A stretch of DNA of 64,000 nucleotides. Source: Aminiphilus circumscriptus DSM 16581. Lineage in GTDB: Bacteria; Synergistota; Synergistia; Synergistales; Aminiphilaceae. Positions 1-37,219 of this stretch are shown piece after piece. The stretch lies in the NCBI RefSeq assembly GCF_000526375.1, contig NZ_JAFY01000007.1, positions 558,001 through 622,000 of the forward strand. The letters are read 5' to 3'. The notes beneath the pieces were generated by a model. It saw only the letters and a list, made by a program, of their open reading frames with translations, was not told the DNA's origin and did no database searches. The translations under genes and the position numbers were made by a program. How positions within the stretch are numbered: position 1 is the stretch's first letter; each line of letters starts with the position of its first letter.

Positions 1-1455
1 TCGCAGTTGTTGATTCCCCTGTCCGACAAGCAGCCCGGAAAGATCAGGGACGCGGGGCTGATCCGGCTTGTGCAGGGTGGTTTCGCCGTGTACAACGCCA
101 AGAGTGACGAAATTCTTCTTCTGCCCTTCGGCACGCTTGCGCTGCGCCGCAGCCTGGGAAAACTTCTCGCGCTCTTTGCAAAGACGGGAGTGCAGCCCAC
201 AGCGTGTTTCGGGGCCGGCCCCTTCTCCATCGCGGACCGTTTCGTCAGGGTTTTCGGCGAAGTCGCCCGGGCCTTTCTTGAAGAGCGGGAGGGAAATCTG
301 GTCTTCACGGGATACGGCGAGACCTTCGCCGAGGCCCAGACCTTTGTCCGTGCGCTGGGAGAGGCGGTGCGGGAGGAGCCGGTCTTCGCCGACCTCGGGT
401 GCCGCGTTCTGGAGGAGCGGAGGGACGATGCCTGGAGGCTCTCCATCGCGGTTCCGGCGCAAAAGGAGGCGCGGGAGTCCGCGCCGGGGATTTGCTGCTC
501 CGCCTGCGGCTGGGGCGGCCTGCCCGAGTCCATCGCTCCGGAGGAGGAGGCCTTTTCGGCAAAGAGTGCGCCCGGACACGGGGAGTTGCCCCTGAAAGAG
601 GCGCACACCCCCGGAGCGAACACTATTGCGGAACTGTGCCGTCAACTCGACGTGCCTCCCTCGCGGACGCTCAAGACCATGTGTTATTCCACGGGAATGG
701 GGGAGAACCTTCGGGTCGCCGCGGCTCTCGTTCGGGGGGACATGGCGATCAGCCTGGAAAAGCTCCGGCGAGCCCTCAATGCGTCGGAGATCCGTCGCAG
801 TACCCCGGAGGATCTTGCCCGATGCATCACCGGCGTGGCGGGGTACCTCGGCCCCATCGGACTGGGTGAGGCGGTCACGCTTGTGGCGGATTCCCGCGTG
901 GTGGGGGCCTGTGATCTCGTGGTGGGAGCGAACAAGCCGGACTTCCATCTCACCGGTGCCTGTTGGGGACGGGATTTTTCGGCTCCCTTTGTGGCGGACC
1001 TGGTGCGCTTCGAGAAGGATTCCCCCTGTCCTCTGTGCGGAGAGCCGCTCTCCGAGGCGAACTGGCGCGTTCTGGGGCATTTCGACGTCCCTGTCTCCCC
1101 CTCGGAAACGGCGCTGACCTGTCGGGACCAGGCGGGAACGCATAGCTTTCCTTTTGCGTGGACGGGGTGCGTCTTCGGCATCTCTCTTCTGTCGGCCCTT
1201 GCCGAGCAGGGGGGAGAAAAGTGGCCCGAGGGATACGCGCCCTTCGATGCATGGATCGTGCCCGTGCTCCCCGAGGACCATGAGACCGCCGAGCGCCTTC
1301 TGCAGGAGCTGTCCCAGCAGGGGCTGGCTCCGTTGCTCGACGACAGGGAGTGCGACGCGGAAAAAAAGATGGCCGACGCCCGCCTGGCGGGCGTGCCTGC
1401 CTTGTATCTGGTGGACACCACCACGTCGGGAAAGCACCTGTTGACCGACGCCTGA
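1..1455 (+). CDS. Prolyl-tRNA synthetase-like protein with YbaK editing domain (5' end outside window)
   Basis: The frame is open to the window edge, so the start lies upstream; the first in-frame start codon is TTG at 7. The remains of a class II ProRS core come first (AGLIRLVQGG resembles the ProRS N-terminus). A well preserved YbaK/INS editing domain follows at about residues 200-350, with RTLKTMCY, LVRGDMAIS, GACWGRDF and a CPLC pair, and then an anticodon-binding-like domain (residues 405-482). Catalytic motifs look lost: motif 2 is not recognisable, the HIFQLGTKYS region reads HFDVPVSPSE, and the GIGVSR arginine motif reads VFGISLLS. At about 480 residues it is also shorter than the usual ~570. 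I infer a paralogue that cannot charge tRNA but may edit mischarged tRNA-Pro. A divergent but active ProRS is less likely. Confidence 0.75.
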   Translation, partial: SQLLIPLSDKQPGKIRDAGLIRLVQGGFAVYNAKSDEILLLPFGTLALRRSLGKLLALFAKTGVQPTACFGAGPFSIADRFVRVFGEVARAFLEEREGNLVFTGYGETFAEAQTFVRALGEAVREEPVFADLGCRVLEERRDDAWRLSIAVPAQKEARESAPGICCSACGWGGLPESIAPEEEAFSAKSAPGHGELPLKEAHTPGANTIAELCRQLDVPPSRTLKTMCYSTGMGENLRVAAALVRGDMAISLEKLRRALNASEIRRSTPEDLARCITGVAGYLGPIGLGEAVTLVADSRVVGACDLVVGANKPDFHLTGACWGRDFSAPFVADLVRFEKDSPCPLCGEPLSEANWRVLGHFDVPVSPSETALTCRDQAGTHSFPFAWTGCVFGISLLSALAEQGGEKWPEGYAPFDAWIVPVLPEDHETAERLLQELSQQGLAPLLDDRECDAEKKMADARLAGVPALYLVDTTTSGKHLLTDA

Positions 1456-3306: not shown

Positions 3307-3936
3307 TCATTGTAGCACAGCCGTGCCGAGAGCGTATGCGCCGAAAAGGAGAATCACTGCTCCGGAGAGGTGGTTGATGATCAGGGTCGTTGCGGGAGAG
3401 ATCGCTCGGCGCAGCAGGGCGACGGAACCGCTTAGGAAAAGCCACCAGGCGAGCGACCCCGAGAAGAACCCCGAGATCATGACCAGCGGGACGTTGCCGC
3501 TGGCCCAGCTCGTCTCTCCGGCGAGGCTCGAGAACAGTGCCGTGAAGGAGAGGATGGTCATGGGGTTGGCCAGAGTGAGGAGACACGTGGTGCCCCAGAT
3601 GCGAAAGACTCCTTCGGGGGCTGCTTGGGAAGCGAATTCCTCGGAGGCGACTTTCCGGGCGCGGAGAATGCCCAGCCCGAGGTAGAGGAGAAAAGCGCCT
3701 CCTCCGAAGGCGAGAAGACGCCGATACTCCAGAAGGAACTGCGACGCCGCGGCCAGGCCGTAGGCGGCCACGGCTCCGTAACAGGCGTCCGCCGTGGCTG
3801 CGCCGAGCCCGGAGACGAAGCCCGCCGACATGCCGCTTCGGAGCGTTCGCTGGATGCAGAGAAGTCCGATGGGGCCCACCGGAGCGGCGATGGAGAGCCC
3901 GAGAAGAAAGGTCTTGAGGAAGAGAGCGGCGCTCAT
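3307..3936 (-). CDS. LysE/RhtB family amino-acid exporter
   Basis: The 209-residue protein has about six hydrophobic segments and the LysE/RhtB pattern near the N-terminus (GLSIAAPVGPIGLLCIQRTL, then GFVSGLGAATADACYG). Family members export lysine, arginine, threonine or homoserine lactones from the cytoplasm. The ATG at 3936 overlaps the stop of the preceding lrp-type gene by four bases (ATGA), so the two are translationally coupled. An Lrp/AsnC regulator next to a LysE exporter is a recurring arrangement in which the regulator senses the exported amino acid. The exact substrate is unknown. Confidence 0.9.
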   Translation of the reverse strand: MSAALFLKTFLLGLSIAAPVGPIGLLCIQRTLRSGMSAGFVSGLGAATADACYGAVAAYGLAAASQFLLEYRRLLAFGGGAFLLYLGLGILRARKVASEEFASQAAPEGVFRIWGTTCLLTLANPMTILSFTALFSSLAGETSWASGNVPLVMISGFFSGSLAWWLFLSGSVALLRRAISPATTLIINHLSGAVILLFGAYALGTAVLQ

Positions 3937-4406
3937 GGCTGCTCCTCCGGAGGAAGCGGCAGAGCGAGGGTCTCCTTGACGCTGGAGAGGACGATGGTGG
4001 TCCTGGTGCGGAGGACGCCCCGCAGTGATTTGATGTCCTCGCTGATGAGCCGGTCCAGATGCTCCGTGTCCCTGCAGCGGACTTTCAGCAGAAAATCGAA
4101 ATCCCCCGCGACGTGATGGCATTCCTGGATCTCCGGTGTGTTCGCCGTCAGATCGAGGAAGAGTGTCCGGTACCTGGGGTGGCGGAGCGTCACTTCGATG
4201 AAGGCGGAGAGGGAGAGTCCAAGGGCCTGCGGGGCTACGAGCGCGCTGTAGCCCCGGATGATTCGGGCTTCCTCCAGCTTGCGGACCCGTTCGGCGACGC
4301 TGGGGGAAGAGAGCCCCAGAGCGCCCGCGAGGTCGGTCCATTTCTTCCGTCCGTCCTCCAGGAGGGCGGCAATGATCTTGAGATCCGTTCCATCCAGGGA
4401 GATCAC
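3933..4406 (-). CDS. Lrp/AsnC family transcriptional regulator
   Basis: The protein is 157 residues, the usual size. An N-terminal winged helix-turn-helix (LDGTDLKIIAALLEDGRKKW, then LAGALGLSSPSVAERVRKLEE) is followed by the alpha-beta RAM ligand-binding domain from about residue 70 (FIEVTLRHP, GDFDFLLKVRCRD). Lrp-type proteins bind DNA as dimers or octamers and respond to amino acids. The start is GTG at 4406; no other start codon precedes it in frame, and AAGAAG lies just upstream. It is the first gene of a two-gene unit with the LysE-type exporter, which it probably regulates. Two palindromes 30-80 bases upstream are its likely operators. Confidence 0.92.
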   Translation of the reverse strand: MISLDGTDLKIIAALLEDGRKKWTDLAGALGLSSPSVAERVRKLEEARIIRGYSALVAPQALGLSLSAFIEVTLRHPRYRTLFLDLTANTPEIQECHHVAGDFDFLLKVRCRDTEHLDRLISEDIKSLRGVLRTRTTIVLSSVKETLALPLPPEEQP

Positions 4407-4435
4407 CTTCTTTGTTGAGGATAATTGCGATATTA

Positions 4436-4486
4436 TCCTTTTTTCAAAAGGAAATCAAGCGTCTTTTCCTTTTTTGAAAAAGGAAA
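4436..4486 (-). promoter_or_regulatory. Tandem A/T-rich palindromes, probable Lrp operator
   Basis: Two perfect palindromes lie upstream of the lrp-type gene: TCCTTTT-TTC-AAAAGGA at 4436-4452, and a 22-base one at 4465-4486 with arms TTTCCTTTTT/AAAAAGGAAA around TG. They share the TCCTTTT/AAAAGGA core, and their centres are about 31 bases apart, three helical turns. That fits cooperative binding of an Lrp-type protein on one DNA face. The operator role and autoregulation are inferred. Confidence 0.6.
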
Positions 4487-4556
4487 TCCTTTTCGGAGTA
4501 CAATGGAGTCGCCGGATGGTCATGCCCACTGCGGAGGAATCGCCGGAGGAAACGCG

Positions 4557-4581
4557 AAAAGCCGGCATTGCGCCGGCTTTT
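4557..4581 (-). terminator. Rho-independent terminator after yerC
   Basis: A perfect 10-bp stem (AAAAGCCGGC/GCCGGCTTTT, loop ATTGC) sits 55 bases beyond the yerC stop on the minus strand and ends in TTTT there. It separates yerC from the lrp promoter region. Confidence 0.75.
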
Positions 4582-4635
4582 CCGAGAGAACATTTCTGGA
4601 AGAATCTCCTTTGGGGGGCGCAGGGGGAGCAGGTC

Positions 4636-4947
4636 TCAGTTCTCGCTTTTCCCTCCGTTCGCCTCTTTCATGCGCTGCAGCACGAGGGGGTAACCGTCGG
4701 CGCCGAAGTCGAGGCACTTCTTCACCCGGCTGATCGTGACGGTGCTTGCCCCGGTTTTCTGGGCGATGACGGGATAGGTGTTGCCTTCATTGAGGAGACG
4801 AGCCACTTCCAGGCGCTGGGAGAATGCCTGGATCTCCGAGATGGTGGCCACATCGGTAAGGAACTGATAGACCTCTTCCACGTTCTTCAGGGTCAGGATT
4901 GCCGTGCAGAGGTTATCGGTGAGCGCGTCTTTCCATTTTGCTGACAT
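4636..4947 (-). CDS. yerC: YerC/YecD family TrpR-related DNA-binding protein
   Basis: The 103-residue protein has the Trp-repressor fold signature. A helical N-terminus (LCTAILTLKNVEEVYQFLTD) leads to SEIQAFSQRLEVARLL and then a helix-turn-helix (NTYPVIAQKTGASTVTISRV). It matches the YerC/YecD group, whose ligand and targets are poorly known; tryptophan need not be the effector. ATG at 4947 has GGAGG about ten bases upstream. It has its own promoter (5006-5033) and terminator (4557-4581), so it is transcribed alone. A palindrome over its promoter suggests autoregulation. Confidence 0.9.
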   Translation of the reverse strand: MSAKWKDALTDNLCTAILTLKNVEEVYQFLTDVATISEIQAFSQRLEVARLLNEGNTYPVIAQKTGASTVTISRVKKCLDFGADGYPLVLQRMKEANGGKSEN

Positions 4948-37141: not shown

Positions 37142-37219
37142 TGGTCGGGATGAGAGGATTTGAACCTCCGACACCCTGCACCCCATGCAGGTGCGCTAGC
37201 CAGGCTGCGCTACATCCCG
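37142..37219 (-). tRNA. tRNA-Pro (GGG)
   Basis: The minus strand gives the cloverleaf with acceptor CGGGATG/CATCCCG, an anticodon stem CCTGC/GCAGG with loop ATGGGGT (anticodon GGG, G37 as usual for proline), T-loop TTCAAAT and a CCA end. It decodes CCC and probably CCU. A strong promoter lies 12-40 bases upstream and a terminator just downstream. Confidence 0.93.

Follow-up and report, generated by a model that had tools for sequence, protein, structure and literature searches.

A catalytically dead P-type prolyl-tRNA synthetase as a probable trans-editing enzyme in the Synergistales

The best sequence and fold matches of the protein family considered here are the bacterial P-type prolyl-tRNA synthetases (ProRSs; 2j3l/2j3m, 5ucm; NF006625), in which a class II scaffold, an INS editing domain and an anticodon-binding domain (ABD) follow one another in a single chain. 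In the Escherichia coli enzyme the INS domain deacylates Ala-tRNAPro, the K279A enzyme being editing-defective, and the specificity of this domain comes from the ABD, which reads G35 and G36, with changes in the acceptor stem mattering little (PMC3973320). The acceptor stem is read by ProXp-ala, and YbaK acts without tRNA specificity (PMC3973320). These two proteins, represented by 5vxb for ProXp-ala and by 1dbu/2dxa for YbaK, together with the 2cx5-type protein named ProXp-x (PMC11295145), share the INS fold and the catalytic lysine and operate in trans beside a ProRS that has no INS domain. ProXp-ala is the known trans-editor of Ala-tRNAPro and ProXp-x also has some activity towards Ala (PMC11295145). 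An E-type ProRS occurs in about 22% of bacteria and charges P-type tRNAPro (PMC12152171).

Two further systems combine editing with synthetase parts in other ways. The archaeal ThrRS-ed of Sulfolobus joins a separate editing domain to an ABD and works beside a ThrRS that lacks editing (PMC11295145, PMC7373986), and the ProXp-ala-ProRS fusions of protists such as Leishmania and Plasmodium unite an INS-superfamily domain with a ProRS (PMC11295145, PMC3532385). What, then, does an editing domain look like on its way out of a synthetase? The trans-editors of the INS superfamily are thought to be single-domain proteins, and the path from cis- to trans-editing has so far mostly been guessed.

The locus described here lies at the start of a 64,000-nucleotide stretch of the genome of Aminiphilus circumscriptus DSM 16581 (G000; 3.22 Mb in 7 contigs), which corresponds to C7:558001-622000 and is termed the window. 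Positions 1-1455 of its forward strand encode residues 4-487, and the stop, of a ProRS-derived protein. The reading frame is open at the window edge; in the genome an ATG stands nine bases upstream (G000:C7:557992), preceded by GGGAGG, giving a full protein of 487 residues with the N-terminus MKLSQLLIPLSD..., the first three residues of which are missed by the window. The features, in window coordinates, are as follows.

1-1455, forward strand: coding sequence of the ProRS-derived, putative editing protein; start codon 9 bases before the window, family shared with relatives
1-480, forward strand: shrunken N-terminal class II ProRS scaffold, from alignment to E. coli and sister-class ProRSs and a well-ordered model
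496-507, forward strand: first CxxC, probable zinc ribbon flanking INS, with near-invariant C166 and C169; present in 35 of 41 members
607-972, forward strand: INS (YbaK-type) aminoacyl-tRNA editing domain (PF04073), the most conserved part of the family
673-675, forward strand: codon of the catalytic lysine, K225 of the window frame, K228 of the full protein and K279 of E. coli; 47 of 47 members
946-948, forward strand: codon of the conserved INS histidine, H316 of the window frame and H369 of E. coli; 47 of 47 members
1027-1038, forward strand: second CxxC, probable zinc ribbon; present in 36 of 41 members
1183-1185, forward strand: Ser at the position aligned with the motif 3 Arg (E. coli R450)
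1252-1425, forward strand: ABD (PF03129), C-terminally shortened in this genus
37142-37219, reverse strand: tRNA-Pro(GGG), a candidate substrate, with a C1:G72, A73 acceptor end (bacterial, P-type identity)

The elements that the protein has lost, motif 2 and the arginine of motif 3, are those by which class II synthetases bind ATP and the adenylate. Alignment to E. coli ProRS and to five complete P-type ProRSs from the sister class of the same phylum reveals a ProRS-like start and a retained motif 1-like region, with LPFG at residues 44-47 of the 487-residue protein, after which the segment around E. coli residues 74-118 is missing and the whole of the motif 2 block (RDEVRPRFG, R140-G148 in E. 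coli) is absent. Beyond this gap come a CxxC, the INS domain, a second CxxC, a motif 3 without its arginine and an ABD without its last part. The deletion of motif 2 extends to 47 of 47 aligned family members, some of which are close relatives of one another, and the commonest residues at the motif 3 position in this set are A, S and P, Arg not being among those listed. Pfam places tRNA_edit (PF04073; E 7e-21; 74.9 bits against a threshold of 25.5) on residues 203-324 and HGTP_anticodon (PF03129; E 1e-5; profile positions 3-63 of 94) on residues 418-475, and reports no class II core domain in the protein. The NCBIfam proline--tRNA ligase models cover residues 195-471 only, the INS-ABD part, and the scores fall well below the equivalog requirements, at 140 against 558 bits for NF006625 and 79 against 307 bits for TIGR00409. 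The protein descends from P-type ProRS, with the same domain order and INS active-site residues, yet lacks what defines a ProRS of that type, and in some lineages of the family the ABD too is shortened or lost. The preliminary description of this locus, which had claimed an intact INS/YbaK editing domain within a damaged class II ProRS, is borne out on both counts. Its further statement that an ABD is still carried holds for most of the family outside the group labelled f5, but in this genus that domain is shortened.

Despite these losses the chain is predicted to be well folded. An AlphaFold2 model based on 41 sequences has a mean pLDDT of 91 and a pTM of 0.88, the scaffold included and the last residues unordered. 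Foldseek matches it best to bacterial ProRSs (2j3m at E 7e-32) and also finds the INS-fold structures 2cx5 and 1wdv. The two CxxC motifs probably form a zinc ribbon; their cysteines are absent from some family members.

The editing site presents the opposite picture to the synthetic one. The window protein retains T257, I263, L266, T277, K279, D350, H369, R377 and D378 (E. coli numbers), and across the 47 members T257, L266, K279, H369, R377 and D378 are invariant, the I263 position is I or V, D350 is kept in 44 and T277 in 42. Mean pairwise identity between family members reaches 0.47 in the INS domain as against 0.26-0.35 in the others. By fold and active-site residues the protein belongs to the INS superfamily, and a deacylase activity would be expected of it. 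Its INS domain is of the ProRS type, unlike that of YbaK, whose equivalog model TIGR00011 gives only 16.7 bits against a cut-off of 153. It differs from ProXp-ala, YbaK and ProXp-x, which are single-domain proteins (PMC11295145) of ~150-180 residues, in being 487 residues long with a synthetase scaffold and, usually across the family, an ABD. The resemblance to ThrRS-ed is functional only, since that protein is archaeal, belongs to the threonine system and has a DTD-like editing fold unrelated to INS; its partner, moreover, is a ThrRS in shortened form, the partner in the present case being a ProRS of another type. The protist fusions carry ProXp-ala at the N-terminus of a working E-type ProRS, in contrast to the dead P-type synthetase part of the present protein.

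That partner came to light in the search for a second, complete proS that the preliminary description had proposed. The same genome encodes a complete E-type ProRS of 479 residues (G000:C5:487673-489094), in which motifs 2 and 3 are present and INS is not, which scores 534 bits with TIGR00408 over a cut-off of 437 and has Thermus ProRS (1h4q) as its best PDB match. An E-type enzyme over the cut-off is found in 157 of 188 genomes of the phylum, and the full P-type ProRS is limited to five genomes of the sister class, where the E-type scores are weak cross-matches. The genome also encodes a free-standing YbaK and a ProXp-x closest to 2cx5; ProXp-ala was not detected in it. One conceivable reason for keeping an ABD, an E-type acceptor stem unreadable by ProXp-ala, does not apply to the one tRNA considered: the tRNAPro(GGG) of the window carries the bacterial C1:G72 and A73.

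The protein is neither confined to this genome nor recent. A profile search locates it in 69 of the 183 Synergistales genomes, spread over 26 genera of this order, and also recovers the five full P-type enzymes, all in the sister class; tblastn finds it in 35 of 61 relatives. A one-pattern scan of the named genome collection returned 32 loci that are family members, all from Synergistota, the next matches being ordinary ProRSs from other phyla. The reading frame is intact in relatives at 30-44% identity, and a second genome of the genus has the same shortened end. In the tree the family forms a single clade (SH-aLRT 100) on a long stem, apart from the complete ProRSs, and the ABD-less members of f5 form one clade within it. 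Against a same-genus relative dN/dS is 0.13 overall, 0.09 for INS and 0.04 for the N-terminal scaffold, a comparison that contains few substitutions. The family is thus an old clade under purifying selection. One genome (G010; loci L021 and L055) holds two diverged copies from different parts of the tree, plus ProXp-ala.

The gene does not belong to a conserved operon, a possibility that was rejected, as its neighbours in the window (TetR, HlyD/ABC, MATE and LysE) are non-translational. Two regulators, one of the Trp-repressor type and one Lrp/AsnC, are encoded at window 3933-4947 on the reverse strand; they adjoin a LysE-type exporter and are close to the MATE efflux gene that comes after the ProRS-derived one. 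PADLOC gave no match, and Rfam gave nothing beyond two tRNAs in the window and a 12 kb region round the gene. In four relatives that are apparently from termite gut (L112, L116, L125, L127) the ABD-less version lies just after genes for alaS, adenosylhomocysteinase and an amidohydrolase, and in L112 the E-type proS is less than 4 kb away. Proximity to alaS was seen only in this subgroup among the relatives.

Evidence on function comes from the distribution of the known Ala-tRNAPro editor. Across the 183 genomes of the order 62 have only the ProRS-derived protein, 51 only ProXp-ala, 7 both and 63 neither, for which Fisher's test gives p = 5e-7 by genome and 0.0017 by genus; on the tree of the E-type ProRS about 2 informative independent pairs lie in the expected direction and 0.1 in the opposite one, too few for significance. 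Genus g13 illustrates the pattern within a single genus, with the ProRS-derived protein in six genomes and ProXp-ala in the seventh. The free-standing proteins L178, L180 and L184 are ProXp-ala, the matches of L184 including 5vxb, the solved Caulobacter crescentus ProXp-ala. The near-exclusion points to a function common to both proteins, short of proof, and it supports an editing role; with 63 of 183 genomes having neither editor and 7 having both, the ProRS-derived protein is neither strictly required nor exclusive. In two genomes of genus g5 a ProXp-ala gene adjoins the E-type proS (L178:505-2473, L179:103-2135) and the ProRS-derived protein is missing. No complementarity with ProXp-x is seen: ProXp-x occurs in 139 of 188 genomes, whether or not the ProRS-derived family is present. 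Order-wide, 15 genomes, several of them nearly complete, are without any detectable INS-type protein.

Taken with the sequence features, this favours, at a probability of about three in four, a catalytically dead P-type ProRS that would act as a trans-editing enzyme, most likely on Ala-tRNAPro. Given how the E. coli enzyme edits, INS and ABD without an aminoacylation site are what correcting the Ala-tRNAPro of another ProRS would need. The proposal in the preliminary description of a synthetase turned editing factor is supported by the family-wide loss of motifs beside a kept editing site, by the E-type ProRS and by the near-exclusion with ProXp-ala. Mechanistically, the E-type ProRS would make some Ala-tRNAPro, the ProRS-derived protein would bind it, either capturing it free or docking on the E-type ProRS, its ABD presumably recognising anticodon bases G35 and G36 as in the parent ProRSs, and the INS domain would hydrolyse the Ala ester using the conserved lysine. 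With YbaK clearing Cys-tRNAPro and ProXp-x clearing Abu-tRNA, the three enzymes may constitute a sieve. Since this genus has a shortened ABD and f5 has lost it, anticodon reading is not the sole route of tRNA choice; the f5 members without an ABD perhaps choose their tRNA via the acceptor stem or through docking.

The most serious competitor is that the protein is the same kind of enzyme with another substrate, its INS domain deacylating, for example, Abu-, Ser- or Cys-tRNA and not mainly Ala-tRNAPro. Members of the INS superfamily have diverged towards Cys, Abu and Ser/Thr (PMC11295145), ProXp-x with its some Ala activity co-occurs widely, and the ABD-less lineages must have altered their tRNA choice. 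We nonetheless regard this as unlikely, since T257, I263/V, L266, K279 and H369 match the Ala-editing INS of ProRS in nearly all members and the near-exclusion is with ProXp-ala, ProXp-x being present with or without the ProRS-derived protein. Less probable again is a non-enzymatic partner, a chaperone or regulator that binds tRNAPro or the E-type ProRS with INS as a relic, which would account for the keeping of a non-catalytic scaffold that is well folded in the model and has some appeal in view of the position near alaS in the termite-gut relatives, one of which has the E-type proS close by as well; a most conserved INS domain with an invariant catalytic lysine is the opposite of a relic.

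Nor does the gene behave as a decaying pseudogene, an assembly or window-edge artefact, or an ordinary proS. That the window starts within the gene and that this genus has a partly eroded ABD might suggest as much, but the genome supplies the full frame, the start and the ribosome-binding site, the same gene end recurs in a second genome of the genus, dN/dS is low and 69 genomes carry the gene; motif loss and family conservation add to the grounds for rejection, and we give this account very little weight. The faintest of the alternatives is a divergent ProRS that still works and duplicates the role of the E-type enzyme. The database models do call the protein a proline--tRNA ligase, though below cut-off, but none of the aligned members has motif 2 and the arginine of motif 3 is gone.

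Preferring the reading as a dead P-type synthetase that edits in trans, we can suggest a history. The P-type enzyme would have been displaced by an E-type ProRS in the ancestor of the order and the old enzyme retained for editing only, the ABD being lost later in one family and ProXp-ala occurring instead in other lineages. With somewhat less assurance, but on balance in favour, we regard the family as an undescribed class of trans-editor, a P-type ProRS stripped of aminoacylation that would function as a multi-domain, anticodon-reading Ala-tRNAPro deacylase kept in much of the order after the E-type takeover, with the full P-type enzyme of the sister class, the dead scaffold with INS and ABD, the dead scaffold with INS and replacement by ProXp-ala as its intermediates. 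A literature search, mostly outside subscription papers, where a prior mention is possible, found no paper describing such a ProRS-derived editor and none linking Synergistetes with prolyl-tRNA synthetase. The earlier idea of a new route to quality control of tRNA-Pro is supported as a reading of the data, though archaeal ThrRS-ed already provides a parallel in the threonine system (PMC11295145, PMC7373986).

A proline--tRNA ligase annotation may be attached to genes of this family, which are not to be counted as ProRS. The family makes it testable whether INS can function without a synthetase site and how an ABD ~70 Å away directs it, a question raised by the work on the E. coli enzyme (PMC3973320). 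Within one phylum the steps from cis- to trans-editing, together with the near-exclusion of ProXp-ala, would be visible side by side.
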